A stretch of 22,199 bases of DNA from a virus: positions 1 through 22,199 of the IMG/VR virus record IMGVR_UViG_3300022907_000110. The stretch is one strand, 5' to 3'. Below the pieces are notes generated by a model. The model saw nothing but the letters and a program-made list of their open reading frames with translations. It ran no database searches and was not told the DNA's origin. Made by a program: the position numbers and the translations under genes. Shown here one piece after another: positions 7,154 through 21,499 of the stretch. Every line of letters begins with the position of its first letter. Positions within the stretch are counted from its first letter, which is position 1.

Positions 7154-7624
7154 CTAAGGTATTACTTCGACATTGTACACGTCTGCAATGTCTGTATCCA
7201 CCTTAGCAGCTTCTTGCAGCAAACGCTGCGCGACACTCGTTAAATAGTAAGCGCCGTTGTCGTCATATTTGTATAGAGCATCAAGTACAGCTTCTGGATT
7301 GTTACTTACCTGAGCCCAGTACCTGTACTTTTCTGGAAATACTAAGTCTAAGCTGTCGTCTGGCTTACACTCTTCACAGGGGGTAGCATTCCTTTTTAAA
7401 TCATATATAGGAGCTTCAGTCAGTTTATATTTAGAAACTAGAGTGCAAGCTGCCCCGTGGAATATTAGAGAAACACCAATACGAGAGAGTATATAAGAAC
7501 CGCTCTCGGTCTTATAGAGCTCAAACTCTATCCAACGGTAAGCGCCTCTACGAGCTGAAGTTGATTTAGCTAGCAGGGTGCCATTGAACTGGAGCTCTCT
7601 ATCGCCGTCTTTTACTGAATACAT
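7154..7624 (-). CDS. Small protein of unknown function with possible zinc-binding HxxxC...CxxC motif (156 aa)
   Basis: I do not recognise a named family. The protein has a beta-rich first half (LQFNGTLLA, YRWIEFELYKTESGSYILSRIG) followed by His56-x3-Cys60, then a TPCEECKP segment with Cys83 and Cys86. This spacing recalls Ada-like metal-binding knuckles that end PCxxCxP, so a structural zinc site is plausible. The C-terminal third, with DALYKYDDNGAYYLTSVAQRLL, looks helical. The ATG shares a base with the stop of the fibre gene (TAATG at 7622-7626), and the DNA polymerase gene follows after 13 bases, so it sits at the boundary of the structural and replication blocks. It could be a DNA-associated regulator or an accessory to the polymerase, but nothing in the sequence decides this. 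Confidence 0.75.
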   Translation of the reverse strand: MYSVKDGDRELQFNGTLLAKSTSARRGAYRWIEFELYKTESGSYILSRIGVSLIFHGAACTLVSKYKLTEAPIYDLKRNATPCEECKPDDSLDLVFPEKYRYWAQVSNNPEAVLDALYKYDDNGAYYLTSVAQRLLQEAAKVDTDIADVYNVEVIP

Positions 7625-10536
7625 TAGATACCTGCAGCATCCATTCTAGCCTGCAGGCTTGCTACTGTATTTTGCAGCTCCTCTATCTGAGATTTTTGCT
7701 GACGAACAATGTGTTGACCAAGGGCATTAATTGAGTGGAAGTCAAGAGACAGAGGGAGAGAACTGTCTAGCGGGTTTCCAGCTTCGTCTGTATCTGCTTG
7801 GTAGACAACTAGGTTAGTTAGCCCTGCTGATTCAAGATCTTCAGCAATAAATCCATAAACAAGATTGTCAGGATCTTCGTTTGGATTAAACTGTTTTACT
7901 GGTACAGAAAGAAACGCTTCTACCATTTCTGGCGTGATTTGTATTTCCTGAATGTTGCTCTTAAATCGACTAGCAGAAGTGTAGGCAAAAACTTGGTTAC
8001 TGCCGTTTACATGCAAAGGCGTTCCGCTAGTGGAGCTTGTAGGCGGCGAGTAGTACATAGTGCCACCAACGTTTAAGTCAGCATTGGCCCTAAAGTTATT
8101 TCTTGACTCTAGTCTGTTGTTCTCGATTGACAGCCTATACGTGTCGTAGTCAGCCGAGCTACTGCTACCAATTACAATGCCCTCATTAAACAGGGCCCAG
8201 CCCGCTGTATAGAAGCCTACCCTCGATGCGGCACCTACAGAGCCTCCAGGCAGGTAGGTACCAACAGATCCAGCAACTCCAACCGTAGTAGTGTTCCCGT
8301 TAATTAGAGTTGCATCCGCATCGCCTATAAACATGGACCAGCCGTTGTTGCTAGTTCCTACGGGATTTATCCTGAGTTTTGGCAAATAAGTGCTAGTACC
8401 AGCGTCGGCATAAATATTTGCTGTCATAGTGCCGTTATATAGGAACTTTAAGTCGGACCCTACAATGTCAATATTTTTGGAAGAGGTTTGAGTGGTCGTG
8501 AGCCTACCACCAGAAACCGTAGAACCAGTAATAGTTCCGCCGTCAATTATGTTACCGCTAATGGTTCCAGTAACAGTTATGTTGTCAGCGTCTAACGTGC
8601 CGCTAGTTATCGAGGTGGCACTTATGTTTGATACCGTAATCTCGTTTGCATCTATTGTTCCAGAGGTAATCGAGTTGGCATTTAAATTATTGACTGTAAT
8701 TTGATTACCATCAATAGTGGTGTTTGTTATCCCTGCACCTAATTGAACAGATCCATCTGAACTATTCATGCGGAAAGTTTCTATTCCGCTAGTTTTATGT
8801 ACTGCCCTCAGGAAGTTTGCATTCAACTGAATTTCATAGACGCTGGTGTTACTAGTGGCATTAATACTTTCACCGTTAAGGATGTAAGTAGAAATTGCTC
8901 CCGCTTCTATGGAAGCACCATCAACTTGAGAGATTCTAGCTGCAGTCTGAGCAGACCCTCCTGTGCTGTTTCCAGCCGAATCAACGGCAACAAATTTAAA
9001 GTAGTAATCTTGACCATATTGCATGTCTAGCAAATCGCCAGTGCTACTTTCTCTGTACTGATAGATGCTGCTGTAATTGTCGGTCCCAGCGGCCATAGAG
9101 GCTACTCTAGTGCTCGAGCTAGTTGTGAAGGGGGAGACGTCAGAGACGTGCGTTTCAATGTATCTAACGGATGGGTGCATATTGACGCCCGTATTGTCTA
9201 GTCCGTCCCACTTAGCCGTAACTACCCCCAAGTCCGATGACAAGTCAGGTGCACTTGGCGGATTTAGGGTTCCTGCAAAAGTTCCACTTGTGGTGTTAAA
9301 AGCTACAGCAGTAGATCTGTTCAAACTAGTGTCAACAGCAAATATGTTGAAATAGACGGTCACAGCAGGATCTAAGTCAGCGATAGTGAAAGTTGTCTCT
9401 GTGCTCAAAAGGCCACTCTTGGTCCACTCGGAGCCCGACACATACGAAGCCCAAACCTCGTAGCCAGCTAAATCATTTAGCGAGTTTCCATTGGCATCGT
9501 CAGTGGGGGCGTCCCATTCAAGAGTTATCTTTGCCCTGTGAGCCCCACTACCATCTGTGTATCCTCCAGATTCAGCAGAAACTACAGCTACGTTAGATAC
9601 AACGTTAGGGGCAACACTGTCGCCTCCGACCGCCTGAGTGCTAGAGGTAAACTCTGCCCAGCGGAGACCAGTCCAATAATAGGTAGTGTCGGGATTAGTG
9701 CTGGTATCAATCCAAGTATCACCAACTGCGGACCAGTTTCGCGCAGTTGGGTAGATGTATACGTCAGCAGTGGGGGTAATGGTTCCCGTGGGGGAGTCTA
9801 CGCCTGCAGAAAGTTCGTACTCTAGGGTGTTGCTAGTAACTGCTGTAACTGCAAATATTCCATCAACTCCGCTGGCTGTTACAGACTCTTGGTTATTAGC
9901 TGCATCGTCGTTAATGCTTGTAAAAATAACATCGCCGACCTCAAACTTGTGGTTAGTAGAAGTTGTTACGGTGACCGTAGTTCCAGTTATAGAAAACGAG
10001 CTTATTTGGAACTTAGTGGCAAGTCTTTTACGAGTTGTCCACGTAGACGGACCTAGGCTCTCGGGGGTAAACGAGTAGCTGTATCCAATAACGACTCCTG
10101 CATCTTGATCCTGAGTGGGGTCGTGCTCATAGGACTCTCTGCCACTCCACGGGGAAGTGTCCGTGTCGGTTACAGTAAAATTATTACTAGTTACATCAAC
10201 AATTTCTGCAGTAGTGCCGTGTATACCGCTAACCTCTATTCTTCCGCTTTCGCTCAGACTGCGAAGAACTGGCTGAGTGTATACCTCAACATAGTCGGCA
10301 TCTTTTCCTGTTAGTTTTTTGGGGTAGTAATATGCATCCTCGACTCGCGTGTATGTGTTGGGAGCAGATGATGCAATATAAAAGTTCTCATCAGCGGTGG
10401 CAATTCCTAAGTCTATGGCCGCATTAATCTGGGCACTAGTTAGGAGGGATATTGGCCTAAGCTCTACGGCTCTTATTCTCTGATCATAGCTACTAAGAGT
10501 AGTAGTTAGTCTCTTTCTACGCTTTCTAATTCCCAT
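7624..10536 (-). CDS. Tail fibre/minor tail protein with FN3 domains and C-terminal S74 intramolecular chaperone (970 aa)
   Basis: A receptor-binding or fibre-type virion protein. Residues 1-45 are basic then helical, probably the attachment to the tail tip. A beta module with NHKFEVGDVIF lies at about 178-258. Two fibronectin type III-like domains follow (about 307-415 and 425-536), then three 20-residue repeats (611-670) typical of trimeric beta-stranded shafts. The end (about 853-970) matches the peptidase S74 chaperone: SASRFKSNI aligns with the usual SDxRLKxNI, giving Ser854 and Lys859 as the likely dyad, followed by YGFIAEDLE and a C-terminal coiled coil. Such domains trimerise the fibre and then cut themselves off. 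The Asp of the usual motif is Ala here. The ATG overlaps the stop of the hub gene (TAATG). The receptor cannot be predicted. Confidence 0.85.
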   Translation of the reverse strand: MGIRKRRKRLTTTLSSYDQRIRAVELRPISLLTSAQINAAIDLGIATADENFYIASSAPNTYTRVEDAYYYPKKLTGKDADYVEVYTQPVLRSLSESGRIEVSGIHGTTAEIVDVTSNNFTVTDTDTSPWSGRESYEHDPTQDQDAGVVIGYSYSFTPESLGPSTWTTRKRLATKFQISSFSITGTTVTVTTSTNHKFEVGDVIFTSINDDAANNQESVTASGVDGIFAVTAVTSNTLEYELSAGVDSPTGTITPTADVYIYPTARNWSAVGDTWIDTSTNPDTTYYWTGLRWAEFTSSTQAVGGDSVAPNVVSNVAVVSAESGGYTDGSGAHRAKITLEWDAPTDDANGNSLNDLAGYEVWASYVSGSEWTKSGLLSTETTFTIADLDPAVTVYFNIFAVDTSLNRSTAVAFNTTSGTFAGTLNPPSAPDLSSDLGVVTAKWDGLDNTGVNMHPSVRYIETHVSDVSPFTTSSSTRVASMAAGTDNYSSIYQYRESSTGDLLDMQYGQDYYFKFVAVDSAGNSTGGSAQTAARISQVDGASIEAGAISTYILNGESINATSNTSVYEIQLNANFLRAVHKTSGIETFRMNSSDGSVQLGAGITNTTIDGNQITVNNLNANSITSGTIDANEITVSNISATSITSGTLDADNITVTGTISGNIIDGGTITGSTVSGGRLTTTQTSSKNIDIVGSDLKFLYNGTMTANIYADAGTSTYLPKLRINPVGTSNNGWSMFIGDADATLINGNTTTVGVAGSVGTYLPGGSVGAASRVGFYTAGWALFNEGIVIGSSSSADYDTYRLSIENNRLESRNNFRANADLNVGGTMYYSPPTSSTSGTPLHVNGSNQVFAYTSASRFKSNIQEIQITPEMVEAFLSVPVKQFNPNEDPDNLVYGFIAEDLESAGLTNLVVYQADTDEAGNPLDSSLPLSLDFHSINALGQHIVRQQKSQIEELQNTVASLQARMDAAGI
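8527..8706 (-). repeat. Three tandem 20-residue repeats in the fibre shaft
   Basis: Residues 611-670 of the fibre consist of three consecutive 20-residue units starting NQITVNNLNA, NEITVSNISA and DNITVTGTIS, the first two each ending SITSGT[IL]DA. The pattern of alternating hydrophobic and small or polar residues fits a trimeric beta-helix or beta-prism shaft. Unit number probably sets shaft length. Confidence 0.8.
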
Positions 10537-12830
10537 TAGTCTAAGAATGCCTTTCCATCAATAACAGTTATTCCGCTAATCGGCACTGAAGGCTCTATCA
10601 CTAGCTCTAGCTCTACTTCTTCAGGGTAACTTGGAGTGTCGGGTACGTTTACATCGAAAGAAGCTATCTTTCTTACAAGAATTCCGCTGCCATCGTCATA
10701 AGTTTGCTCTAGGCCACTGCTGGCTCTTTGGATCAAGAAATCGTCAGCAAGACGGACAGTACACCAGTCTCCAGGATTGTAGTCACCAAGTTTTGGAAAC
10801 GCAGACCCGTTAACTCCAATAGTAAATGTTCCAATAGGAGGAACTGACTCCTCCAACATACGCTGAGCTTGTTTGTATAGAGTAGTTTCGTCCATTGACT
10901 CTAGAGTGTCTACAGCATCTAGCAGTGCCCAGCCGTCATTCAGGAGTAGGTGGTTAGACGCAGCCGAATATGGCTGACTTGCATCTGATGAAAGAGCCTC
11001 GTCCGTACCTCTAACAAAAAACCTAGTTGCCGCGTCCTCTGCAGATTCGTCTAAACTTGCCTCTAGTATGTTCCCTGGGTATTCAAATATTAAAGAGTCA
11101 GCGCCGTATGCACTAACTGGTATAGGACCAGAAAATCCCGTTGCTTGCGTTGCAAGATAGCTAGTCAGTTCAGCTGGAACTAGGGGTAAAAATTTAAATT
11201 CGCGCTTAAACTCGTTTGTATTCGAGTTGTAGCTGCAATCAACTCTATATTCAAAGCCGCCAGGTTTAGTCGAGTAGTCTTCTAAAACTTCTGCAACAGT
11301 TTTTAGCTCAAATCCGCGTACTATTGGATTAGCTTCATAATTACCACTAGTAGCAACGTTGGGGAAGTCAAAACCTAAATCACCCGAAGTCGTGTGCTCC
11401 CCGAAAGTTCCGTAAGTCACAGCTGCCCTACGAGTCACCCTAGGAGGCTGCGACTCAGCGGTTCCTCCCGAGCTATAAGTGTCTACATTGCTGCTTGCTA
11501 CAGTAAATGTAGTGTCTGTTCTAGATTCTACATAGTAGTCTCCATCAAAAGAAGACGGCGTTACGTTAGAGACTGCAACAGACGCCCCGACCGTGAAGTC
11601 ATTTTCGGCAGTAAAGGTTACGCTAACACCGTTTCCAGTAGCACCAGTTATGTCAGTTATTGAGTAGACAGAGGTGTAGCTGAGAGCAATGTCAGATCCA
11701 AACATGACAACCCTAAAACTTGTAGAAGTCGGGACATCATAAACCGTAAAGTAGCCATCAAAAGTTTCGCTAACGTGTTCTATATAGACAATGTTATTCG
11801 CGGTGTAGCCATGTGCAGATGTGGTGTTGTATGTTGCAATGTTGGAGTCTCTAGAGAAAGAAACAACATTAGCGACATAGTTTGTCTCTGATATAGAGGC
11901 AACATCGCTTCCTGTATTTACATAACTAAAACTATTATTACTGACAATGTCGCTTACCACGGCTTCGCTAGCATTGAATGCCGAATCTGTAGTCACATCA
12001 GTAATTGTCACTTTTTGACCCTCTACCAGCTCGTGAGACTTAGTGAGAGTTAAAGTTGCTACGTTATTGGTTCTTTCTACAGAATCAATCTCGTTGAATA
12101 AATCAATTCCGGGCCGAATTGCATCATTAGCAAAGTCAAAGTCAAAAAGATCTGTATTTAACTCTTGCATTAAATCTTTTGCGTAGTCGTAAGTATCTTG
12201 ACGAGTTTGAACAGTAATTGGAGACTCTGAGCCCATAGTCAGGTTCGGCATAACTTTAGTGGTATTAGTAGCGTCAACATACTCTGCATCTACTGTTATT
12301 ACAGACTTACCATCAACATTAGTGGTAGCAGTGTTTACAGTAAAATACCCAGTGTATTTAGCGTAGTCAGTGCCCCAGTCAATCCAAACGGCTTCATTAG
12401 CTTCGAAGCCGTATTGTCCGTTAGACAAAGTTATGGTGGCTATTCCATCAACTACCTGAGCAGTTGCCTCATAGTCTGAGCTCCAAGTTTTCCATACAAC
12501 CCTGTGAGACAAGTAGCTAGTAAACTCGGAGGCGCTAACGCTTAAGACTTTGTCAATTAGGCTGTAGTTTCTGCTCCAAATAATTCCTCCCCAGACACAA
12601 ACATTGTTTCTAACAATATAAAGTGCTGTTTTGCCCGGAAGTGTCGTGTTGTATAGATCTAAGTTGTAAGTGTCAGCAATAATAGGCACATCACCAGAAA
12701 AACGACCAGCCTCGACTAGTGACCTAGAATAGTTAACTGATTTAAATGGAATTTCAGCGAGCAGGGTATTAGTGAGCAAGTCAGTGGTGAAGTATCTGTA
12801 CTCCACTGCTTCAGTAGTGTTTACTGTCAT
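10536..12830 (-). CDS. Minor tail protein, probable baseplate hub with inserted repeat modules (764 aa)
   Basis: The position between the distal tail protein and the fibre is where siphophages encode the hub or tail-associated protein. The N-terminal 118 residues (YIVRNNVCVWGGIIWSRNYS, then SVSASEFTSYLSHRVV) and the region from about 500 on (FELKTVAEVLEDYSTKPGG, then LGDYNPGDWCTVRL) match the split hub fold seen in actinophage minor tail proteins of the Gp37-like kind. Between these halves lie four beta modules (about 120-195, 248-322, 323-390 and 391-460) with the pattern hydrophobic strand, then H-x-hydrophobic, then G-x-x-V-x-I. They probably decorate the tail tip. No lytic domain is visible. 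The start is an ATG with AGGGA eight bases upstream. The end overlaps the fibre gene by the TAATG junction. Confidence 0.75.
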   Translation of the reverse strand: MTVNTTEAVEYRYFTTDLLTNTLLAEIPFKSVNYSRSLVEAGRFSGDVPIIADTYNLDLYNTTLPGKTALYIVRNNVCVWGGIIWSRNYSLIDKVLSVSASEFTSYLSHRVVWKTWSSDYEATAQVVDGIATITLSNGQYGFEANEAVWIDWGTDYAKYTGYFTVNTATTNVDGKSVITVDAEYVDATNTTKVMPNLTMGSESPITVQTRQDTYDYAKDLMQELNTDLFDFDFANDAIRPGIDLFNEIDSVERTNNVATLTLTKSHELVEGQKVTITDVTTDSAFNASEAVVSDIVSNNSFSYVNTGSDVASISETNYVANVVSFSRDSNIATYNTTSAHGYTANNIVYIEHVSETFDGYFTVYDVPTSTSFRVVMFGSDIALSYTSVYSITDITGATGNGVSVTFTAENDFTVGASVAVSNVTPSSFDGDYYVESRTDTTFTVASSNVDTYSSGGTAESQPPRVTRRAAVTYGTFGEHTTSGDLGFDFPNVATSGNYEANPIVRGFELKTVAEVLEDYSTKPGGFEYRVDCSYNSNTNEFKREFKFLPLVPAELTSYLATQATGFSGPIPVSAYGADSLIFEYPGNILEASLDESAEDAATRFFVRGTDEALSSDASQPYSAASNHLLLNDGWALLDAVDTLESMDETTLYKQAQRMLEESVPPIGTFTIGVNGSAFPKLGDYNPGDWCTVRLADDFLIQRASSGLEQTYDDGSGILVRKIASFDVNVPDTPSYPEEVELELVIEPSVPISGITVIDGKAFLD
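11451..12473 (-). repeat. Region of four diverged beta-module repeats in the hub-like protein
   Basis: Four units of about 65-75 residues lie at residues 120-195, 248-322, 323-390 and 391-460. The last three are directly in tandem. Shared features are a strand like VATLTLT or IATYNTT, a KSHELVEGQKVTI or SAHGYTANNIVYI segment, FDG[YD][FY]xV, and a final TSFRV or TTFTV strand. They resemble small beta modules scattered through phage tail proteins. They are too diverged to show as DNA repeats. Confidence 0.7.
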
Positions 12831-12867
12831 TTTTATGTCCCTACGATTTACCTATATATTTTACCAG

Positions 12868-13884
12868 CTAGTAGAGCCACCCAGAGCGGTAGATAACTTT
12901 ACATTTAGCACTGCTAGAAGCGTTAGAGGTGTCTTCAAATTCAATCTGATTGGCACCAGGTTCAAGGTATATCCACCCGACAAGGACCGATGCTTTAGCC
13001 CTACCGCTCACTACAGTTTGAGTAGTGTTTAAAGTATTTGCTGTCTCCACGCTGTCCGTCACCGAGAGAATTTCTCTTTCTAGGGTGTCAATTTGGAGAG
13101 TCTCGCTTAATGTGTAATCACCTACGGCCGTGTTCCAGTAGGTAGTGTCAATAATCTCTATTGTCTGGCCGTTAGTTGAATTTAAAATTGTTGCTGGTGC
13201 AGACGTGGAAGATGTTAGCGCATCGTCGTAAATTTCTATAATTACAGGAACTGCAGTGTCACCGTAGTTAAATACGTTTGCAGAGCCGCCCGAAGTTATT
13301 ACGTTAGAGCGAGTACCGTCTCCATCAGGCGAGCTGTCATACCACTCGTACTTGATGGGGTCCGCAGCTTTTAGCCCAATAGAGAAGTCGTGACGTCCCC
13401 TAGCTCCGACGCTAGCAATCTCTGGCTGACCATTTAGTCGAACATTTGCAGCTCTAGTTCCTCCGGGCTCCTCTACTTTAAGCCAGCCGCCATCCTGAGT
13501 TTTTACAAGATTTATGGCTTGAAGCAACTGAATCCTAGCATTTGCAGCATTTGCAGGGTCAGTAGGAATGAATGATCCCTCTAGAGTTATGAGCCTGTCA
13601 GTGTAGCGACCAATGGCATCGTAAGAACCGTCACCCCAGCCTCGTGTCAACTCTGGAAGCTCTGGCTCTGGAAGGGTCCACCAACCTTCTAGCTCGGTCA
13701 TTACCCAGACTACGTTATTAGTGGTGTCTAACTTGTTGAGAGTGAGGCCATTAATCTCTACATCTTCAGCCAGCTTTAGGCCAGATATCTCGGGAGTGGG
13801 AAGATTAGTTAAAGCCTTATTGACAATTTTGTTTTCTTCAGCCTGCTCTTGGGCCGCTACGGGGGATTCATAGTATTCTGACAT
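12868..13884 (-). CDS. Distal tail protein-like minor tail protein (Dit-like, 338 aa)
   Basis: Directly after the tape measure gene is the usual place for the distal tail protein, the ring that joins the tube to the tail tip. The N-terminal half contains GLTLNKLDTTNNVVWVMTEL, then RGWGDGSYDAIGRYTDRLITLEGSF and the later RHDFSIGLKAADPIKYEWY. This series of segments, with a short strand, a glycine-rich turn and a Phe/Ile-rich strand, is characteristic of actinophage Dit-like proteins. The C-terminal half (about 205-338) is another beta-sandwich-like region that could contact host carbohydrate or the hub. The ATG shares one base with the tape measure stop (TAATG at 13882-13886). A 37-base spacer separates its stop from the hub gene. 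The family likeness is from memory; the position supports it strongly. Confidence 0.75.
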   Translation of the reverse strand: MSEYYESPVAAQEQAEENKIVNKALTNLPTPEISGLKLAEDVEINGLTLNKLDTTNNVVWVMTELEGWWTLPEPELPELTRGWGDGSYDAIGRYTDRLITLEGSFIPTDPANAANARIQLLQAINLVKTQDGGWLKVEEPGGTRAANVRLNGQPEIASVGARGRHDFSIGLKAADPIKYEWYDSSPDGDGTRSNVITSGGSANVFNYGDTAVPVIIEIYDDALTSSTSAPATILNSTNGQTIEIIDTTYWNTAVGDYTLSETLQIDTLEREILSVTDSVETANTLNTTQTVVSGRAKASVLVGWIYLEPGANQIEFEDTSNASSSAKCKVIYRSGWLY

Positions 13885-16800
13885 TAGATGCTGCCCTTCC
13901 TAATCTCAAAGGCAATGCGGCGCGAGACAACTTCTGCAAGCTCTCGCTCGTTCATTCCGGGGGCTGGATTTACTGTTACGTTGACGTTCGAGCCCATGCG
14001 GATTTTTTGGTTGTTATTTATAGCATCTAGCAAATCCCTATTTGCAGAAGTAGCGCGAGCATTTACGACATACTCTCCGTTCGAGAGCATTGCTGGGATT
14101 GAGTCAGAGCGAGCTGTACCCAAGCCCGAAACAATTCCGCCCGTACTAAACTTTTGAATAGCCCCGACTAAGCCTCCATCTTTAAACGGATAGCTCAGCC
14201 CCGTGGTGTTCATGATTCTTCTAATGTTAGGAGTAATAGAGTCATACATACTGAACGTCTTGAGCTCTTCGTTGATACCCTCTCCTAGGGCAGCGGCAGC
14301 CTGCTCGCCCGCTTGACCATAAAGGTCAATGAACTTTTGTTTTTCCTCGTCAGTGCCGTCAACTAGTGCTTGAACGAGAGCAGCTCCCGCTTGACCCATC
14401 TCTTCTACTTGAGCATAGACATCCGCGGGGAGCTCTTTGTGGAGCTCTGCAAGATTATCTTTCCAGTTTTGTTCTGCTAGAAGTTGATCCTCCAGCTGCT
14501 GCAGGTAGACCTCTAAGTTAAAGCTTTGGCCGTCGTAGTAGTCTTCCCAGCTATCGCTAGCATCCTCTGTATCCTCGGCCATTTGAATTGCCCACGCCAT
14601 TGTGGCATCTTTATTTCTAGAAAGTGCTCCATCTAGATCAAGGAGTTCTCCCACTGCTGCGTCAAATCGAGCTTTTTCTTCTCGACGGATTCGCTCCATC
14701 TCGATGTTGGCTTCTTCAGCTGCCGCGAGCTGTTGCCGTATGGCAACCTCTCCTTCACCAATGGCCAAGTTGACCAACTTTTGCTTGTCAATGGTTCCAT
14801 CCATGTTGTGGATGGTAATCCCCATTTGGTCAGCTTGGTCGATGAGGGCTTCTTTATACTCGTCCATTTCATCAATGGCAACAATGAGCTCGTCCTTACT
14901 TAGACCAACCTCTGCACCAAACCTTCTGAGCTGCTCTTGAGCCCTTGGAAGGTCCGTGACGGCAATGTCAGCAAGAGACCTACCAATTGCTCCAAAGGAG
15001 TCAGCTAGGGCAGTAGTTCCACCATTTGAGTAAATGTAGTTTTCTTGCGCTTTAGCGAGTCCACCAATTTTTTCTTTCATCTGGTCAATAGACTTAATGC
15101 TGTCTTTGATGCCGTTCGGAACAGCAAGAGTTGCTTTTTCCCAAACCGTAGCCGCGTCAGCGCCGTCTTCGAATGCGTCAGTTATGCCGCTAGTGGCCTT
15201 TTCCATTCTTTTACCATGTTCAGCCACAATAAGTGTGACCGCAGCCACGACTCCGCCAATTACGGCAGCTAGAGGCAAGAACGGAAGTAAGGCAGCTTGA
15301 ACTGTTGCTGTAGCTGCAAGGGCAGCACGACTTAGCCCTCCCATGACTGCAGTAGCACTTCCAGCAGCTGGAGCGATGAGACCCACGTAGGTAAGAAGTC
15401 TAATTATAAATCCAGTACCAACAAGACCAATTTTCCCTAGCATGGTAAACAAGAGTCCGAAAGCACTAAGCACAGCGAAAGCTTGACCAACAACATTATC
15501 TAAAAGTGGCTTTAAAGCATTTACAATCTCTTCTATGCCTTGGAATGCATAGTTAAGGGTCTCCAAGAAAGTCTGAGGAACTCCTGAATCTGTAAAGGCT
15601 GCGATAATTCCTGTAAGGGTGCTTAGGATTTCTCCAAGGGCAGGCGCTGACTCTACCATTGCTGTTAGCAACTGAGAGAATTCATATGAACCTTCGTCTA
15701 GAGCTTCCCAGAATTCTGCCACAGCAGGGTTTGCTCCTAGTCGAATTAGGGTCTCGAACGCCCCTCCTAAAGCATTACCTATTGCAATAAAGTTGTCCGC
15801 TGACCTAGAGAAGTATGTCTCTAGGAAAGCCTGATCTGCATCAGCCCAAGCTCCCGTGATTTCATCTAGCCAGTCAAGTATCTTCCAGCCACCAGTTCCA
15901 GGGGTAAAGTTGGCTGCTACCATGTTGACTATAAAATCAAATGTTTGACCAAAGATTTCTCCAAGTTTTGCAGCATTGTCTCCAGCTTGAGTGAAGAAAG
16001 CTTCCAGCTCTCCAGTTTGGGCTTTTATGTCCAAGAAGGTTGCCCAGCTGCCCGCCTTGTCGTCTAGGTACTCTAGGAATCTTCTAGTGAGGGGATCCGC
16101 TTCCTTAACTGCAGTAAGAAGGGCATCAAATAGGTTTCCAAATATTGACCCAAAAATAGGTATATTTTCTGCCATATCGCCCAAGACGTCATCTAGCTTT
16201 TGTAGGTTATCTCTAGCTAAAAGAATGTCCGTGAAGTTTTCTACAGCACCGCCAACAGCTACACCTAGGTCGTAGAACCTGTCCTTCAAAATTACTGGCA
16301 GACCGCTGTCAATAATCCTCTTCATTTGCTCTTCAAGAATCGGGAGGAATCCAGAAGCAGCAGCCTCTTTTAGCTCTTCTTGTATAGGAGCTATAGATAC
16401 GAGGAACTCTGCAAACGCCCGCTGAGAATCCGTTAGACCTGCAAACGGGTCGGAACCAGCACCACCACCCCTAAGTCCGTCAATGCCCTTATTGACTTGG
16501 TCGTTGAGGTCCTCGCGATTTGCAATTGCTTTTCTATAGGCAAGTTCTGCTTCTTTGAAGGCAAGGCTTGCTTCCCTACGAACCCTAGAGTTGGGGGCAA
16601 GGTCAGCTGTTCTAAGAAGATTTTCTCTAGCTTTTTCTAGATTTAGTGCAGCACGCTCTTCACCTAAAGCAGCATCTTCAGCAGCAAAAAGTAGATCTTC
16701 GTATTTTTTAGTGAGATCTTCTACGCTCTCGCTGAGTCCGCTCGTCGCATCCGTAGCCTTTTCTACAGCAGAGCCAACGTCGCCTAGTGCAAACGTTGCA

Positions 16801-17207
16801 ATGCCTAGTCCAACCCTAGCCGTAATAGCAGCACTACCTAGGCCAATCAAAGCTGGAACAGCTGCTCCGACCGAACCAATTAGAGCACCAAGTCCGCCAA
16901 CTAGTGCACCAACTGAACCAGCTAGAGCACCGATAGCAGTCTGAGCAACATAGCCTCGACGAACCAATCGAGTAAATGCTTCAGCACTTCTCTCGGCTTC
17001 TGGGTATAGCTCTCTAAGTTGGTCCGCTAATGCATTGAATTTATTTTGTCTTGCCCCTCGGTTTAACCCTCTAGTCAGAGCGTTACCCATTTCCCCGCCA
17101 GAGCGGTAGGCAGTCCTAGTGGATCTGCTGAAAGCGCGTTGAATGTCGCCTTCAACCTTATCGGTTATGGCGCGTACCATTACGTACGCTGAACCTACAA
17201 CAGCCAC
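13884..17207 (-). CDS. Tape measure protein (1107 aa)
   Basis: The longest gene in the window, directly after the chaperones, as in nearly all long-tailed phages. It sets tail length and is ejected with the DNA. An amphipathic N-terminus leads to a Gly/Ala-rich hydrophobic stretch (about 87-143), then a charged coiled coil (about 155-240). A second hydrophobic stretch lies at about 575-665, with TLIVAEHGK at its end, and further helices follow. The C-terminus has GGIVSGLGTARSDSIPAMLS followed by GEYVVNA (around 1020-1055), a motif common to tape measure proteins. No peptidase or muramidase motif is visible. At about 0.15 nm per residue the tail would be about 165 nm. The GTG start at 17205-17207 is decided by an exceptionally good ribosome site seven bases upstream. 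Confidence 0.95.
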   Translation of the reverse strand: MAVVGSAYVMVRAITDKVEGDIQRAFSRSTRTAYRSGGEMGNALTRGLNRGARQNKFNALADQLRELYPEAERSAEAFTRLVRRGYVAQTAIGALAGSVGALVGGLGALIGSVGAAVPALIGLGSAAITARVGLGIATFALGDVGSAVEKATDATSGLSESVEDLTKKYEDLLFAAEDAALGEERAALNLEKARENLLRTADLAPNSRVRREASLAFKEAELAYRKAIANREDLNDQVNKGIDGLRGGGAGSDPFAGLTDSQRAFAEFLVSIAPIQEELKEAAASGFLPILEEQMKRIIDSGLPVILKDRFYDLGVAVGGAVENFTDILLARDNLQKLDDVLGDMAENIPIFGSIFGNLFDALLTAVKEADPLTRRFLEYLDDKAGSWATFLDIKAQTGELEAFFTQAGDNAAKLGEIFGQTFDFIVNMVAANFTPGTGGWKILDWLDEITGAWADADQAFLETYFSRSADNFIAIGNALGGAFETLIRLGANPAVAEFWEALDEGSYEFSQLLTAMVESAPALGEILSTLTGIIAAFTDSGVPQTFLETLNYAFQGIEEIVNALKPLLDNVVGQAFAVLSAFGLLFTMLGKIGLVGTGFIIRLLTYVGLIAPAAGSATAVMGGLSRAALAATATVQAALLPFLPLAAVIGGVVAAVTLIVAEHGKRMEKATSGITDAFEDGADAATVWEKATLAVPNGIKDSIKSIDQMKEKIGGLAKAQENYIYSNGGTTALADSFGAIGRSLADIAVTDLPRAQEQLRRFGAEVGLSKDELIVAIDEMDEYKEALIDQADQMGITIHNMDGTIDKQKLVNLAIGEGEVAIRQQLAAAEEANIEMERIRREEKARFDAAVGELLDLDGALSRNKDATMAWAIQMAEDTEDASDSWEDYYDGQSFNLEVYLQQLEDQLLAEQNWKDNLAELHKELPADVYAQVEEMGQAGAALVQALVDGTDEEKQKFIDLYGQAGEQAAAALGEGINEELKTFSMYDSITPNIRRIMNTTGLSYPFKDGGLVGAIQKFSTGGIVSGLGTARSDSIPAMLSNGEYVVNARATSANRDLLDAINNNQKIRMGSNVNVTVNPAPGMNERELAEVVSRRIAFEIRKGSI

Positions 17208-17220
17208 TGGATCACCTCCT
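17208..17220 (-). promoter_or_regulatory. Extended Shine-Dalgarno for the tape measure gene
   Basis: On the minus strand AGGAGGTGATCC (17220-17209) precedes the GTG start. It is fully complementary over 12 bases to the universal 3' end of bacterial 16S rRNA, GGATCACCTCCT. The AGGAGG core is seven bases from the start codon. It is by far the strongest ribosome site in the window and fixes the GTG start. Confidence 0.85.
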
Positions 17221-17228
17221 CGGAAGGG

Positions 17229-17585
17229 CTACTGGATGGGGGAGTCTAAGACTCCACCAAAGGGGTCACTACTATCTGCGTCAAACTCTGTCGGAGGTAT
17301 GTACCCCTTAACAGCTGGCTCTACGCTCTCTCCCGAGGTTTTGTTTGAACTTCCATACTTATATGGTCGGTTATACAAAGAACCATATAGCGTATGTCTA
17401 ACGCTTGAATGCATCTGGGCGGACTCAGGCGTTGCATACCTCATGTCTTCATCTAGGAAGTAGTGGATTACATCAAGCATTTCCACTGCATCCATTTCTA
17501 GAAGATTTAAGTTATGCACTATCGCCTTTCCATTAACGTGGGGCCAGAGGTCTATTGCCCAGGTGAGGAGTCCTCTGGCTGCTGA
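17229..17585 (-). CDS. Tail assembly chaperone, frameshift extension (gpT-like part of a gpG-gpT fusion)
   Basis: This frame is entered by a -1 shift at 17585-17591 from the upstream chaperone frame. It is open from the slip site to its stop at 17229-17231, adding 118 residues (SAARGLLTWAIDLWPHVNG onward) and giving a 224-residue fusion. The region LEMDAVEMLDVIHYFLDEDMRYA is an acidic helical segment typical of the longer chaperone, which binds tail tube or tape measure. A GTG at 17517-17519 could start the frame independently (96 residues), but no ribosome site precedes it and codons upstream of it are open, so the fusion is preferred. In lambda the G/GT ratio governs tail assembly, and the fusion is absent from the finished virion. 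The sequence supports frameshifting strongly; its efficiency is unknown. Confidence 0.8.
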   Translation of the reverse strand, partial: SAARGLLTWAIDLWPHVNGKAIVHNLNLLEMDAVEMLDVIHYFLDEDMRYATPESAQMHSSVRHTLYGSLYNRPYKYGSSNKTSGESVEPAVKGYIPPTEFDADSSDPFGGVLDSPIQ

Positions 17586-17591
17586 TTTGGG
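17543..17591 (-). promoter_or_regulatory. Programmed -1 frameshift signal: CCCAAAT slip site plus downstream stem-loop
   Basis: On the minus strand the heptamer C CCA AAT (17591-17585) sits in the exact zero-frame register of a canonical X XXY YYZ slippery site. Five bases later an 8-bp perfect stem, GCCAGAGG (17579-17572) with CCTCTGGC (17550-17543), begins, with a 21-base loop containing the zero-frame stop (17554-17552). The -1 frame is open beyond the site. Register, spacing and stem all match stimulators of ribosomal frameshifting in phage tail chaperone genes. Confidence 0.85.
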
Positions 17592-17902
17592 CGGTCAGAG
17601 TACTGCTCAATCAGCCATGAAACAATTTCGCTTAGAGTCTCTACGTGTACAATTTTTTCCTTGTCGTGTACAAGCTTGTAAAATCTCTTGTAGCTCTCGT
17701 CAAGTAGAACATTCTCGAAGAAATCAGTGATCACTTTTGCAGATGCACCAGCTTCCTCTGAAGTTGATTTAGCAATCAGGTCCAAAAGAACGCTACCCTG
17801 AATGTGCTTTACGCACTCAAAATCTTCTTCATGAAGTTTGAATGAAATTGGCTCTTTGTCTTCTAGAGACTTACCAGCCCCGAAGTCCTTGAATCTAGTC
17901 AT
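17552..17902 (-). CDS. Tail assembly chaperone, short form (gpG-like, 116 aa)
   Basis: A small acidic helical protein beginning MTRFKDFGAGKSLEDKEPISFKL placed just before the tape measure gene, the position and size of the lambda gpG family. The segment EEDFECVKHIQGSVLLDLIAKS, then a helical ASAKVITDFFENVLLDESYKRFYKL region, is typical of the actinophage tail assembly chaperones. It chaperones tube and tape measure during assembly and does not stay in the virion. Most ribosomes would end at TAG (17552-17554), while some shift at codon 106 to make the longer form. The ATG at 17900-17902 has only a weak purine run (AAGAAAG) upstream. The 65-base spacer before it may carry transcription or translation control. 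The family call is strong from position, size and the frameshift. Confidence 0.85.
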   Translation of the reverse strand: MTRFKDFGAGKSLEDKEPISFKLHEEDFECVKHIQGSVLLDLIAKSTSEEAGASAKVITDFFENVLLDESYKRFYKLVHDKEKIVHVETLSEIVSWLIEQYSDRPNQQPEDSSPGQ

Positions 17903-17967
17903 TTTTGTAGTACTTTCTTATATCAATTTGTCTATAATTTGCGGCTCTATGCCGCATATCAATTGTA
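17903..17967 (-). promoter_or_regulatory. Structured AT-rich spacer ahead of the chaperone gene, possible promoter or processing site
   Basis: The 65-base gap holds a compact hairpin, TGCGGC with GCCGCA around ATAGA (17940-17956). It lies between two direct copies of ATATCAATT (plus strand, 17920-17928 and 17956-17964). An outer inverted repeat, GTAGTAC (17907-17913) and GTACTAC (17965-17971), encloses both. On the minus strand TTGATA (17961-17956) followed 17 bases later by AATTAT (17938-17933) is a weak promoter match. No U-run follows the hairpin, so a terminator is unlikely. The role is undecided. Confidence 0.3.
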
Positions 17968-18486
17968 CTACCTTATGTGAACCCTAAGTTGGTCTGACAG
18001 GTACCTGTTAGCCTTAGTTCCGGGGTGCAGTACCATTTTTGTATAAATAATCCTCGAGTTTTTTCTAAAAACTAGCGAGCCCGCACTGCCCTCTCTAGGA
18101 GTAATTATGTGGGGCCTAGTTCCTTGGTGATGCATATAAGCGTAAGGCAGGCCAGATCCAATTTTTAGTGTTTGACCTTTATAAGGAATCCCCCTGTGCT
18201 CCATATAAATAGAGTCCCTAAGTCTGCCAGTTTTGACACCCACCTGAGCCTTGGCCCCAACCATAATTTGTCTGCCCAATTCATGCATGTGGCGGCCTAC
18301 CATGCCCATAGGATTATTTAGCTCAAAATTTAAAATTGGTTTGTAGATTACAAGTTTTTCTACAGTTATTTCTAGAGCTAGTCTTGCTCTGTAACTACTA
18401 GGCCTTCGAGCCCTTCTTGCTGCTCGAATTCCTTTTCCAGCCCAATAAAAAATAGGGCTGTCAGGTATTAGTCCCCAAGCTGGCAT
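17968..18486 (-). CDS. HK97 gp10-like head-tail/neck protein (172 aa)
   Basis: The central segment VGVKTGRLRDSIYMEH, followed by KIGSGLPYAYMHHQGTRPHII and then LHPGTKANRYL, is the recognisable signature of HK97 gp10-like proteins. It contains a TGxLrxSi motif, an aromatic-His segment and a closing HPGTxAnxYL. Members sit at the neck between connector and tail and are needed for head-tail joining or tail completion. The N-terminal 45 residues are unusually basic (AARRARRPSSYRAR). The gene begins one base after the stop of the tail-terminator-like gene, and a 65-base spacer follows it before the chaperones. The family call is firm; the exact ring it forms is not visible. Confidence 0.85.
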   Translation of the reverse strand: MPAWGLIPDSPIFYWAGKGIRAARRARRPSSYRARLALEITVEKLVIYKPILNFELNNPMGMVGRHMHELGRQIMVGAKAQVGVKTGRLRDSIYMEHRGIPYKGQTLKIGSGLPYAYMHHQGTRPHIITPREGSAGSLVFRKNSRIIYTKMVLHPGTKANRYLSDQLRVHIR

Positions 18487-18487
18487 T

Positions 18488-18997
18488 TTATGGCACCGCC
18501 ATTGTTACAATCATGTTAGTAGTTTGAAATCCACCCTCTGGCGGTGTTGCTTCAAGAGTTGCAATAACTCCAACTCCATACCCAGTCTCGTCCCATTGGT
18601 CGAGTTGATTGATAGATTCCATAAGTACCCATGAGTCAATCGCCATAATTTCAGAAGCAGCTGATATCGCTTCAGGCGATGGGGGTCTACCGTTTTGCCC
18701 AACAATAGGAGTTTGACGGGCAATTGAAATGGTTAAAGTAGCACTCCTAGGGACGTGGCAACGCTGCGGTTCGCCAACCTGCGCCCCCGGAGGGCCTAAG
18801 TAAAGCTGTTGGAAATAGACAACTACCTGTTCGCAGTCGATAGCTGGAGTTGACATTGACCAGTAACGGCGCTGCGGCAACTCCACGTTATACGACTGAA
18901 AAACGGATTGTACCCTCTCCAGTACACCTTCCATCATATCCCTGAGATGGACCGCATCCTCAGAGACTCCAGATAGATCTAATTCCTGACTTACCAT
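18488..18997 (-). CDS. Tail terminator-like / neck protein (169 aa)
   Basis: The 169-residue protein starts with helices (LRDMMEGVLERVQSVFQSYN) followed by LPQRRYWSMSTPAIDCEQVVVYF and a beta-rich core with RSATLTISIARQTP, then ESINQLDQWDETGYGVGVIATLEA. This series matches the tail terminator-like proteins that actinophages encode between connector and chaperones, which cap the tube and dock it to the head. I recognise the pattern from memory and cannot confirm it by search. Its ribosome site, GAGGAG, is formed by the last two Glu codons of the preceding small gene, with its stop two to four bases later, so the two are translationally linked. Another neck role is possible. Confidence 0.65.
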   Translation of the reverse strand: MVSQELDLSGVSEDAVHLRDMMEGVLERVQSVFQSYNVELPQRRYWSMSTPAIDCEQVVVYFQQLYLGPPGAQVGEPQRCHVPRSATLTISIARQTPIVGQNGRPPSPEAISAASEIMAIDSWVLMESINQLDQWDETGYGVGVIATLEATPPEGGFQTTNMIVTMAVP

Positions 18998-19000
18998 TGA

Positions 19001-19192
19001 TTACTCCTCGGTGGAGGTCTCCTCAACGGCAGGAGCCTCTACGGTCTCCTCAACAACAGAAACAGCTGGTGCTGACACGATTGGCTCTGGCGTTGGAGCT
19101 GGAGCAGATACGCGTGGAGCAGGGGCTGCCTTCTTTGCGGGCTTCGCGGCACCCAGCATGTCCTGGGCACGGAAGTTAGTCTGAATTGACAT
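19001..19192 (-). CDS. Small Ala/Pro/Glu-rich protein of unknown function (63 aa)
   Basis: A short frame starting MSIQTNFRAQDMLGAAKPAKKAAPAP, preceded by AAGGA at a proper distance from the ATG, so it is likely translated. Residues 15-25 are basic. The rest is a disordered Ala/Pro/Val stretch that ends strongly acidic (VEETVEAPAVEETSTEE). No fold or family is recognisable. Its two final Glu codons double as the ribosome site of the next gene. The location between connector and terminator suggests a minor virion or assembly factor, for example a flexible tether, but the composition gives no firm clue. Confidence 0.65.
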   Translation of the reverse strand: MSIQTNFRAQDMLGAAKPAKKAAPAPRVSAPAPTPEPIVSAPAVSVVEETVEAPAVEETSTEE

Positions 19193-19206
19193 ATTTTCCT
19201 TCTTTC

Positions 19207-20319
19207 TTAGTACATCGTAACTTTTAAGTTACCTGTAGCTAGTTCGACCAGACTCTCGACACCATCACCATCAGTGCTTGAGGCGTAAAGTGTCCATGTT
19301 CCTGGGTCCACCAACCCCAGTGCAGTTTTTGCACTTGTGTAAGGAATGGTGAAATCTAGTGTGTCATCGCTGTCATCAAGAGTAATTGATGCTGCGGGAA
19401 GTGTCACAGAAGTGGTGTCTCCGTAATTCCTCAAGATAACTTTTGGAGTGTAAGTGGAGTTTAGCGGGAAGAAGTTACTTAAATCAGTTCCGCTGTCTGC
19501 TGACGTCCAGCTAATCGAGCCTGTTGGCTGAGAAAGCGTGAGGTCGAAGTCTGCATTTGCAGTTAGCTTTAGCGGCTTAGCTGTGTATTTACGAGCACGA
19601 GGAGCATCTACAGAAAAGACCTTAGAGCGACGACGGGCGTTGTCTGGGTTTACCGTTTTAAGGAACAGGTCAATCTCGTATAGTCCCGTGCGGAGCTCGT
19701 CGATAAATTCTTGGTTGTCTAGGATGGTGTAAGAGACGCCCTGACGTGAAACGGAAGTTACACGCTGAGGCAGCTCACACATCTCGTCGCCAGCCCAAAG
19801 GCGGGCAAATTCAATGGCTAGCTTACGAGCTGCCATTTTCCCCGCAGTAGGAACTGCAATTCCATACTGATAAGTAATCTCTACGTTGCAAGGAGTCCAA
19901 GGCGTACCAGCCTTGATGTGAATAGTTGAGTGGTCTACGAGGTAGTAGCTCGATGGGTCAAGAACAACGCCGTTCTTGTTTCGCATCGAGATAATCTTAG
20001 TTACTGGACGCCCTCTGAGTCGGATTCTTGCGTCTGGCGAGAGTCCGTCAGCAGTGAGCTCAGAGTATTCGTCATAATCTCCTGACGGAATATTATAAAC
20101 ATCACCGCCGAATAGTACAGGACTGTTAGTCCTATCGGAAGGGCCCATGCGATTATTTCGAAGGGTGCAGGTGTAACGCTCGGTGACAATGGTCTCTCCT
20201 GTGTATTTACGTCCAGACATGGCCCAGAGTAGGTTGGACGCTACTTGGATGGCCTCTTCCGTATATTCGGTGTAAGAGTAGTCCCCAAGCTCGTCTGCTG
20301 TAATCCATGAATTCGACAT
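19207..20319 (-). CDS. Head-tail connector/adaptor with C-terminal beta domain (370 aa)
   Basis: Residues 1 to about 245 look like a head-completion adaptor. A helical start (WITADELGDYSYTEYTEEAIQVASNLL) leads into a beta region (PVTKIISMRNKNGVVLDPSSYYL) and a helix with GKMAARKLAIEFARLWAGDEM, then LPQRVTSVSRQGVSYTI. These features recall gp6/gp15-type adaptor proteins that dock on the portal. Residues about 250-370 are a separate beta-sandwich-like domain (DFDLTLSQPTGSISW, then TLDFTIPYTSAKTALGLVDPG and TWTLYASS). Adaptors are usually 100-200 residues, so this is a fusion with an extra, probably exposed, domain. The start has an AGAGGA ribosome site and follows a long hairpin after the tail tube gene. 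The connector role is likely; the partner of the added domain is unknown. Confidence 0.7.
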   Translation of the reverse strand: MSNSWITADELGDYSYTEYTEEAIQVASNLLWAMSGRKYTGETIVTERYTCTLRNNRMGPSDRTNSPVLFGGDVYNIPSGDYDEYSELTADGLSPDARIRLRGRPVTKIISMRNKNGVVLDPSSYYLVDHSTIHIKAGTPWTPCNVEITYQYGIAVPTAGKMAARKLAIEFARLWAGDEMCELPQRVTSVSRQGVSYTILDNQEFIDELRTGLYEIDLFLKTVNPDNARRRSKVFSVDAPRARKYTAKPLKLTANADFDLTLSQPTGSISWTSADSGTDLSNFFPLNSTYTPKVILRNYGDTTSVTLPAASITLDDSDDTLDFTIPYTSAKTALGLVDPGTWTLYASSTDGDGVESLVELATGNLKVTMY

Positions 20320-20339
20320 GATTTCCTCTTTATAAGTTT

Positions 20340-20382
20340 AACGGGTGGTAGCCCAAGCTAATTGCTCAAGCCACCACCCGTT
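20340..20382 (-). terminator. 19-bp inverted repeat after the tail tube gene, probable terminator or RNA-stability hairpin
   Basis: On the minus strand AACGGGTGGTGGCTTGAGC (20382-20364) can pair with GCTTGGGCTACCACCCGTT (20358-20340) around a five-base loop. The outer ten pairs are perfect; the inner nine include four G-U pairs. It starts eleven bases after the tail tube stop. Only two T residues follow on the minus strand, whereas a T-rich run, tttcttta, follows on the plus strand. It may therefore act as a bidirectional, partial or mRNA-protecting hairpin rather than a full terminator for the minus transcript. Confidence 0.6.
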
Positions 20383-20392
20383 TCTTTAGCTA

Positions 20393-21499
20393 TTAGCTAG
20401 GGTTTTCGTTCGAAGCGATGATGTTGTCAATGCTGTTGTCAGCGTTGTAGTCCTTGCTTCCAGGAACGTTGTAGGTAGAGCCACCAGCGTCGAGGCTTGT
20501 GGTTGCCGTGTAGCTTGCGGCCTCAGTTACGCTGTTAACAACAGTTACCTTAGCGTTGCGAGCGACGTTGAAGGAGCTGATGTCAGCAGTGATTCCACTG
20601 GATACGTAGGTAACAGTGTTTCCAACAATCGAGTCAACAGCGAAGGTTCCATTGAATGGAGTTCCGACGTTCTCAATCTTGATGGAGTCACCAGCAACGA
20701 TGTTCGGGTTCGCGCTGAAGGTAAGAGTTGCAGCGGTTCCAGAAAGAAGTGCTGCGGCACTGTTAACGGTAATCGAGCTTGCGTCAATTGCGGTAGCCGA
20801 GGTGAAGTAGACAGGTCCAGTCTCGTCGGTCCAAGTGTAGAACCCGTTGAGTCCAGTTGGAGCCCAGTCTGCACGTGCGTAAGCGTATGGACGCTCAGCT
20901 GCAACTGGGAACTCCCAGCGGCCATCTGGGCCAGACTGGAATGCTGCGTTTCCAAGACCGTAGCCTTCGAAGGTGTTAGCCATCAGACCGTTTTCAATTA
21001 CACGGTCACCAGACTGACGCATCTTGACGAATGGGAATACCCAGTGGAAGTAAGGAAGAACAGAAGCCTTCTTACCGTCCTTAACTGCGTGCGACCATAC
21101 CTCGAGAGCAACACCGTTTCCAGCTGGGTCGTCTCCAACACCAGGTGCTGCCCAACCAATTGACTTGTGGTCTGGGTCAGCTGCAGTGTTTAGGTTCTTG
21201 CGAAGTAGCAAACCACCAGAAATCAGAGCAGAAAGCTCTGGGTCTGGCTCACAAATAGCGAGCTCCATGGTGATTCTCTTAAGGGTGTCTGGGGCCTTGT
21301 ATGTTACGCATACAACACCGTTGGCACCCTTCTCTGTGATTTCGTCGCCCTCTTCATATTCAGGGGTGAACGAAACCCTCATAAACGCGGAAGTGGTGTA
21401 TGAATCCGCACTTCCCGTCATTAGGTTACCAGCAGCATCTAGGCGGGTGACACGGATTGACACACCCTGAATGCTGGCTGCATATTCTTGAGTAGCCAT
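20393..21499 (-). CDS. Major tail (tube) protein with inserted/C-terminal beta module (368 aa)
   Basis: The first 235 residues carry segments typical of actinophage tail tube proteins: MRVSFTPEYEEGDEITEKGANG, then APDTLKRITMELAICEPDPEL and SALISGGLLL, later YFHWVFPFVKM and GRWEFPVAAERPYAYARADW. The protein would polymerise into hexamer rings of the tail tube. Residues about 238-322 add a small beta module (TLTFSANPNIVAGDSIKI, FNGTFAVDSI, NTVTYVSS) of the same kind seen in the hub and fibre. A short Ala/Thr-rich tail follows. The start has AAGGAG nine bases upstream. The gene directly follows the capsid gene, ahead of the connector, whereas the tube gene normally lies after the tail terminator. 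A capsid-associated decoration role is the main alternative, but the motifs favour tail tube. Confidence 0.75.
   Translation of the reverse strand: MATQEYAASIQGVSIRVTRLDAAGNLMTGSADSYTTSAFMRVSFTPEYEEGDEITEKGANGVVCVTYKAPDTLKRITMELAICEPDPELSALISGGLLLRKNLNTAADPDHKSIGWAAPGVGDDPAGNGVALEVWSHAVKDGKKASVLPYFHWVFPFVKMRQSGDRVIENGLMANTFEGYGLGNAAFQSGPDGRWEFPVAAERPYAYARADWAPTGLNGFYTWTDETGPVYFTSATAIDASSITVNSAAALLSGTAATLTFSANPNIVAGDSIKIENVGTPFNGTFAVDSIVGNTVTYVSSGITADISSFNVARNAKVTVVNSVTEAASYTATTSLDAGGSTYNVPGSKDYNADNSIDNIIASNENPS

Follow-up and report, generated by a model that had tools for sequence, protein, structure and literature searches.

One small beta-rich module recurs in three different virion proteins of the virus represented by IMG/VR record IMGVR_UViG_3300022907_000110. 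The stretch analysed, hereafter the window, comprises 22,199 bases, and its minus strand holds a siphophage-type tail cluster with genes for the tail tube, adaptor, small neck proteins, tape measure, Dit, hub and fibre. A first-pass annotation, made from the letters alone, had placed the module four times in the hub and once each in the fibre and the tail tube, and these positions agree with what we found. Family profiles show all six segments to be homologous. Four copies, in two stretches, interrupt the hub core, one lies in the N-terminal half of the fibre, and one separates the core of the tube from its C-terminal arm. Structure models suggest that the module is a mobile beta-barrel of about 70-95 residues, of the kind known from endosialidases and from the FCCH domain of ubiquitin E1 enzymes.

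Homology of the six copies

Non-redundant relatives (48 hub, 28 tube and 32 fibre sequences, with 15 for hub module 4) supplied the family profiles. The six segment profiles were compared among themselves and against eleven further stretches taken from these proteins, the 45 best pairs being considered. All 15 module pairs aligned in hhalign with probabilities of 93.5-99.3%, including those that join segments of different proteins. Hub module 3 matches the tube module at 99.0% and the fibre module at 97.3%, and the fibre and tube modules match each other at 97.7%. Hub module 1 is the weakest copy, and the case for it rests on its profile-profile scores (94.0-96.8% against the other five copies) and on its strand pattern, with strands predicted at residues 119-127, 130-135, 147-151, 161-170 and 176-181. 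Other pairs above 20% were two overlapping tube stretches (98.7) and two adjoining stretches of the fibre labelled as fibronectin-like (93.2). Two further stretches resembled modules. The control stretch at hub residues 560-640 scored 66.9-95.7 against hub modules 2, 3 and 4 and the tube module, because 8 of the 48 family hubs hold a further copy at the position of window residues 554-566. The fibre stretch 90-175 scored 69.1-87.0 against hub module 3, the tube module and hub module 4, with 87% for hub module 3; judged from sequence, fibre residues 95-127 may be the second half of a seventh, degenerate module directly preceding the recognised one.

Hidden Markov models (HMMs), each built from the family of one segment and run on the 14 window proteins with E-values scaled to a set of 5000, also cross from protein to protein. 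The hub module 2 model reaches the tube (5.8e-7), the hub module 3 model reaches both the fibre (3.3e-6) and the tube (5.2e-6), and the tube model finds the hub three times (2.8e-6, 1.6e-5 and 2.6e-4). Weaker matches to the tube came from the models of hub module 4 (2.9e-4) and the fibre (7.1e-4). The tube model had no fibre match among those listed, the fibre model found the hub at only 0.13 at best, and the hub module 1 model did not reach the tube or fibre at the level of the other cross-protein matches. These models gave no match in 1414 shuffled or reversed decoys. Taken at the level of sequence, the six segments are thus similar far beyond chance.

The two motifs by which the module had first been recognised, [HN]-x-[FIL]-x-x-G-[DQ]-x-[VI]-x-[IF] and F-[ND]-G-x-[FY]-x-V, fared less uniformly. 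The pattern is present as a consensus, V-A-T-L-T-T-x-x-x-H-G-[FL]-x-x-G-[DQ]-x-V-x-V ... F-[ND]-G-x-[FY]-x-V-x-x-V-P, but taken literally the first motif occurs at one place (hub module 2, residue 266) and the second at three (hub modules 3 and 4 and the tube), leaving the fibre module and hub module 1 with neither. Shuffled window proteins yield 0.005 and 0.015 matches per 14-protein set for the first and second motif, respectively. The literal motifs were rejected as evidence of homology for being too strict.

Table 1. Module copies and their carrier proteins in the window. Bit scores are from the pooled HMM and are partly circular, the window's own segments being among the sequences from which it was built; pLDDT, predicted local distance difference test.
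Feature	Residues	Coordinates	Strand	Basis or remark
Hub gene		10536-12830	minus	
Hub core, N-terminal part		12477-12830	minus	gp27/VgrG-type hub fold; phrog_1885 minor tail protein
Hub module 1	119-194	12249-12476	minus	12.9 bits; weakest copy
Hub module 2	243-317	11880-12104	minus	61.2 bits
Hub module 3	318-389	11664-11879	minus	72.1 bits
Hub module 4	390-462	11445-11663	minus	38.6 bits
Hub core, C-terminal part	476-764	10539-11405	minus	gp27/VgrG-type hub fold; phrog_1885 minor tail protein
Tail fibre		7624-10536	minus	phrog_1330 tail protein; module and C-terminal endosialidase-type chaperone (Peptidase_S74)
Possible degenerate half-module in fibre	95-127	10156-10254	minus	5.4 bits
Fibre module	177-260	9757-10008	minus	53.1 bits
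Tail tube gene		20393-21499	minus	
Tail tube core	1-228	20816-21499	minus	phrog_792 major tail protein, E 2.5e-24
Tail tube module	229-323	20531-20815	minus	model pLDDT 77-95 on residues 231-320
Tail tube C-terminal arm	326-368	20396-20524	minus	retained in DSL-LC01 without the module

Predicted fold and nearest solved structures

The tube model has a mean pLDDT of 52.9, with far better values over the module (Table 1), and the hub model has a mean of 80.4. The best solved match of the tube module is the barrel of the phi92 endosialidase (4hiz; Z 10.4, root-mean-square deviation (rmsd) 2.1 over 82 residues, 22% identity), and residues 424-510 of the K1F endosialidase match with Z 9.6, the rmsd to the endosialidase barrels being 2.0-2.1 over 80-82 residues. 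E1 FCCH domains match the tube module with Z up to 8.4, which alone would be weak, as models without a clear match have best background Z values of 7-8. The hub model matches the phi92 barrel (Z 10.2), the K1F barrel (Z 9.3), the FCCH domain of UBA6 (Z 10.2) and Schizosaccharomyces pombe Uba1 (Z 10.0). The phi92 match starts at hub residue 243 but its 80 aligned residues reach 478, and the top barrel matches in general cover 75-81 residues within the span 241-478, which means that they do not cleanly represent a single module. Matches on residues 388-462 correspond to hub module 4 alone (UBA6 FCCH, Z 8.6, rmsd 1.8); among the matches listed this is a single-copy match, and hub modules 1 and 3 are not singly matched there. 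Different predicted folds would have spoken against a common module, whereas the tube and hub models share their best solved match, and this agreement, together with a like order of strands, is the reason for assigning the hub and tube copies to one fold. In these models of hub and tube, the nearest solved fold is the endosialidase barrel, which is shared with E1 FCCH.

A sequence link to the phi92 endosialidase was found with a broad module profile (E 3.9e-5) and falls to only E 0.2 with a profile from the narrower alignment A4. This link therefore depends on the broad profile, and the structural links are independent of it. The top sequence match of the module profile among solved structures, a TAL effector, was dismissed as a repeat artefact made of 21 tiny pieces, none of them significant singly. 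The first-pass annotation had noted that such modules are sometimes hit by the E1_FCCH profile (PF16190), and this lead is borne out by the fold, whereas the sequence signal is weakly positive: E <= 1 is reached by 13 of 64 modules (best 0.0028), hub module 2 matches weakly over residues 256-303 (E 0.019), and the curated cut-off of 29.5 is not reached either by the window hub (15.5 bits) or by one of the 64 modules (14.1). The E1 alignment itself shows an H-G-L-x-x-G-D-x-V turn. The E1 domain belongs to a cellular ubiquitin enzyme, and no ubiquitin function is implied for the phage module.

The carrier proteins can be seen around the barrels. Matches of the hub model to known hub proteins span residues ~9 to 590 with far fewer residues aligned, such as Mu gp44 (1wru; Z 8.5, 166 residues over 9-549), which indicates that the barrels have been inserted into an otherwise ordinary hub. 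The tube core, at about residues 11-200, matches solved tail tubes and Hcp. In the fibre, Peptidase_S74 at the C terminus scores above its cut-off, and a probable fibronectin-like stretch lies between it and the module (first-Fn(III) model, 19.7 bits, below the cut-off of 27.3).

These results also bear on the idea that the copies merely converged on a simple beta pattern with V-G-D turns. The module is rich in Thr, Ser and Val, and the literal motifs fit some copies only, as convergence would have it. However, the profile similarity extends over the full length, the decoys gave no match, the strand order is alike, two proteins lead to the same best structural match, and the Dit and tube copies of one relative (locus L080, below) are akin at the DNA level, so that we consider convergence highly improbable.

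Distribution, divergence and movement among tail genes

Among annotated phages, the window is closest to DSL-LC01, of Dishui Lake origin, and to large Microbacterium phages. DSL-LC01 is reported to have Actinomycetia as its predicted host (PMC10611076), and the host range of the module-carrying group is probably actinobacteria. A pooled HMM run over 81 loci, the window being one, found the module in orthologues of the tube, adaptor, Dit, hub and fibre, with one to five copies per hub above the cut-off (low counts include partial genes) and up to nine per Dit. After near-identical loci were collapsed, 63 loci held 311 modules (177 in hubs, 41 in Dits, 38 each in tubes and fibres, 8 in adaptors and 9 elsewhere). 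Twenty-one records behind loci already collected were searched whole; all 21 match, some with copies outside the tail cluster. One canonical module used in tblastn against phage records (E <= 0.01) returned nine records, seven from Microbacterium phages and two from Caudovirales sp. ct2KA10. One domain type is therefore shared by several virion proteins of a single phage: hub, fibre and tube in the window, and also Dit and adaptor in relatives.

The module also behaves as a dispensable insertion in otherwise conserved proteins. The DSL-LC01 tube, of 271 residues, is 76% identical to that of the window over residues 1-228 and keeps the arm but lacks the module, so that by sequence it is a natural empty site. 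The tubes of Gordonia phage Phendrix (217 residues) and Arthrobacter phage Mimi (218 residues) have neither arm nor module and gave no HMM match. Likewise, hub module 4 is filled to at least 60% in 15 of 48 family members and is missing as an exact block from most hub relatives.

Several side observations concern the carriers. The third hub insertion site noted above is occupied at L049 (9974-12400) and at seven other loci (L050, L051, L052, L066, L074, L076 and L080). A DSL-LC01 protein annotated as 'ALK tyrosine kinase receptor' (WJZ48558.1; L084 4222-12783) contains at least 10 modules in a 2853-residue frame near collagen-like genes; its annotation looks wrong, a large virion or fibre protein being more likely. 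The module was not found in the annotated major capsid protein of that phage. In Microbacterium phage Pumpernickel (L083 28519-38887), two tail proteins and the hub show runs of partial matches of about 30 residues, like half-barrel repeats. The window's own Dit (12868-13884) has no match to the module HMM, whereas the Dits of many relatives hold one to nine copies. The window's head-tail adaptor (19207-20319) has an extra C-terminal stretch at about 245-370, past its phrog_783 match (residues 19-244), and the adaptor is a module carrier in some relatives. The adaptor usually lies ahead of the tail tube gene; unlike this, the tube gene precedes the adaptor in the window (19207-21499), and DSL-LC01 and Pumpernickel are arranged likewise.

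The tube and hub copies diverge fast relative to their host proteins. Tube modules have a median identity of 54% where the tube cores are 90-95% identical (62 pairs), and the hub core has a mean identity of 0.57 to 47 relatives, against 0.29-0.40 for the hub modules (13 relatives for module 4). The ratio of nonsynonymous to synonymous divergence (dN/dS) in tubes is 0.07-0.38 for the module and 0-0.12 for the core, with the module higher in 14 of 15 pairs. It stays below 1 for the module in all 15, which indicates that the tube module is kept as a working protein.

The copies within the window are only 22-33% identical to each other, and they reach 49-97% with their best orthologues in other phages once near-identical contigs are collapsed. 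The low mutual identity implies that their split is old. The proposal of duplication and transfer within one virion thus stands as far as one mobile module common to hub, fibre and tube is concerned, but not as recent transfer inside this virion. That recent duplication and transfer within this phage lineage produced the window copies seems to us distinctly improbable. Pooled over all loci, cross-protein identity within a virion is 0.302, against 0.272 in permutations (maximum of 500, 0.290), and the excess persists within clades drawn at 50% and at 60% hub-core identity, where none of 400 permutations comes as high in either case; it shrinks within clades at 70% (0.2963 vs 0.2910, 1 of 400 as high) and further without L080 (0.2912 vs 0.2875, 8 of 400), and reads as weak, lineage-limited exchange. 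At L080, identity between Dit and tube modules is 78-85%, and their genes have identical tracts of 32 and 37 bases in common. These are the longest among 488 same-virion pairs, the next longest being 17 bases, and no tract exceeds 23 bases among 860 pairs that join different proteins of different virions at 45% identity or more. Within a single virion, exchange of DNA among tail genes is thus seen only at L080. The best-matching module in another protein belongs to the same virion for 3.6 of 41 Dit modules (expected 0.73) and 6.0 of 172 hub modules (expected 2.9), both above expectation; this holds for none of the 38 fibre or 8 adaptor modules and for 1.0 of the 37 tube modules.

Phylogeny also bears on this history. 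In a quick tree of 226 rows, 24 fibre modules, the window's included, fall in one set with 20 window-type tube modules (SH-aLRT, the Shimodaira-Hasegawa-like approximate likelihood ratio test, 95), and the fibre label takes 2 changes, not 1. A more careful, focused tree used 97 of the 226 rows and 67 columns, resolving little. Hubs contributed 22 sampled rows and three more from the window, and Dits 16 sampled rows; left out were two long or odd fibre rows (L018_fib_1 and L048_fib_2), the Dit rows of L078, L068 and L005, the hub rows of L078 and the nine rows from other proteins. Here the fibre modules (23 rows) form one clade in 200 of 200 bootstrap trees checked, window-type tube modules form a separate clade (20 rows, support 100/99), and other tube modules are placed elsewhere, some with Dit modules. 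An old link between fibre and tube modules, favoured by the quick tree, is thus lost in the careful one and is only weakly suggested. A single clade of all tube modules was disfavoured (approximately unbiased test, p 0.029), for a group that was chosen after inspection of the tree; this gives a hint only that tube modules were replaced at least once. Synonymous divergence (dS) between the window and L016 is 0.91 in the tube module and 0.22 in the core, against 0.20 and 0.25 for the window and L005, a contrast that fits block replacement of the module between phages. Module movement has thus occurred inside at least one genome, and probably from one genome to another, but the three-protein pattern of the window is old.

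A possible role in host adhesion

By analogy with known systems, we favour, as somewhat the more probable reading, a role of the tail barrels in weak adhesion to host glycans through many copies. The barrels would project outward from the tail and make many weak contacts with surface glycans, which would hold the particle along tube, tip and fibre while a receptor is sought. Tape measure length scales at 1.5 Å per residue, and a tube ring at 4 nm; from the 1107-residue tape measure protein, about 40 tube rings may be estimated, so that the tube alone would show roughly 250 copies. The K1F tailspike is described as having three binding sites for polysialic acid, of which the barrel is one, and host discrimination is reported to change with substitutions at S460, S468 and G504 (PMC12632334); these positions lie inside the matched range 424-510 only if the numbering agrees. 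The adhesion idea gains weight from having this type of site as its nearest fold, although fold similarity by itself is no proof of binding. In addition, Pfam's End_beta_barrel (PF12195) serves as a marker of receptor-binding proteins in a table of their domains (PMC9230537), and in mycobacteriophage Douge, immunoglobulin-like (Ig-like) domains on capsid and tube are reported to bind host glycans, with other fibre and baseplate domains binding the same class (PMC13033339). Domain shuffling is reported as established in receptor-binding and baseplate proteins (PMC10684548).

A number of points weigh against adhesion or against so close a tie to the endosialidase barrel. The Foldseek E-value between the tube and the K1F endosialidase is a modest 0.019, and PF12195 matches only 3 of 64 modules (E <= 1, best E 0.003) and nothing in the window at E <= 10, so that no window protein scores above its curated cut-off. 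We know of no glycan role for ubiquitin E1, which has the same fold. The H-G-x-x-x-G-D turn is common to the module and E1, which suggests a structural role for the conserved residues, and no binding site stands out as conserved. Among seven stretches measured in the fibre, the module has the highest conservation (mean identity 0.47 vs 0.24-0.46), unlike what a host-range arms race would produce, and dN/dS of the tube's C-terminal arm is likewise raised (0-0.34). The outward placement itself is inferred, as the tube core is modelled with low confidence, and the K1F barrel is reported to be largely permissive to mutation (PMC12632334).

Much of this suits the main rival, namely that the barrels are purely structural and stiffen or protect the tail, or dock tail proteins, without touching the host. 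Such a role would agree with best-conserved positions in core and turn, with a dN/dS below 1, with module counts that differ between relatives and with the most conserved fibre stretch being the module. However, related tubes without a module show that assembly as such does not require it, the closest solved fold is known to bind glycans, and the tube module diverges far faster than the tube core; for these reasons we regard a purely structural role as rather unlikely. Adhesion could also be taken further: a single family of barrels that grip sugars would then cover the entire tail, neck adaptor and fibre included, and would be refreshed by moving module DNA. Such moves would take place among the tail genes within one genome as well as from phage to phage, and the general stickiness of the particle towards its host would be retunable as a set. 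This whole-coat extension strikes us as doubtful.

Returning to adhesion in its simpler form, the module family may be compared with other decorated phage proteins. The endosialidase barrel (phi92 4hiz, K1F EndoNF) resembles it in modelled fold, in sequence for phi92 through the broad profile, and in its place on phage tails, and the window fibre also carries an S74 chaperone. In endosialidases, however, the barrel lies within a catalytic tailspike, whereas the window has several copies of it, distributed among hub, fibre and tube, and a Pfam scan of nine window proteins found no sialidase propeller. Ig-like decorations, as on the capsid and tube of Douge, likewise put one small type of beta domain on several virion proteins, and lambda gpV is a further example; they differ in fold, and the window family sits in hub, fibre and tube (Dit and adaptor in relatives). 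BACON repeats in crAss-like phages are also described as tandem domains of carbohydrate-binding type in a phage protein, but the domain is different and those phages are predicted to infect Bacteroidetes (PMC6949934). In open-licence literature, FCCH searched with phage and tail gave nothing on phage tails by title or opening of the abstract, and no paper was found for endosialidase, barrel and major tail protein together. The family may be an analogue of Ig-like tail decorations on another fold, the decoration of tails being already known practice.

Ig-like domains on phage particles have been suspected of weak host binding, and this is reported to have been shown recently for Douge (PMC13033339). 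The module may account for E1_FCCH or endosialidase-barrel hits on major tail proteins. In relatives, as many as five types of virion protein carry it, and these relatives offer natural empty sites and include cultured Microbacterium phages. With a different fold, related to a known polysaccharide-binding site, the family would provide an independent test of the idea that tail decorations serve adhesion.

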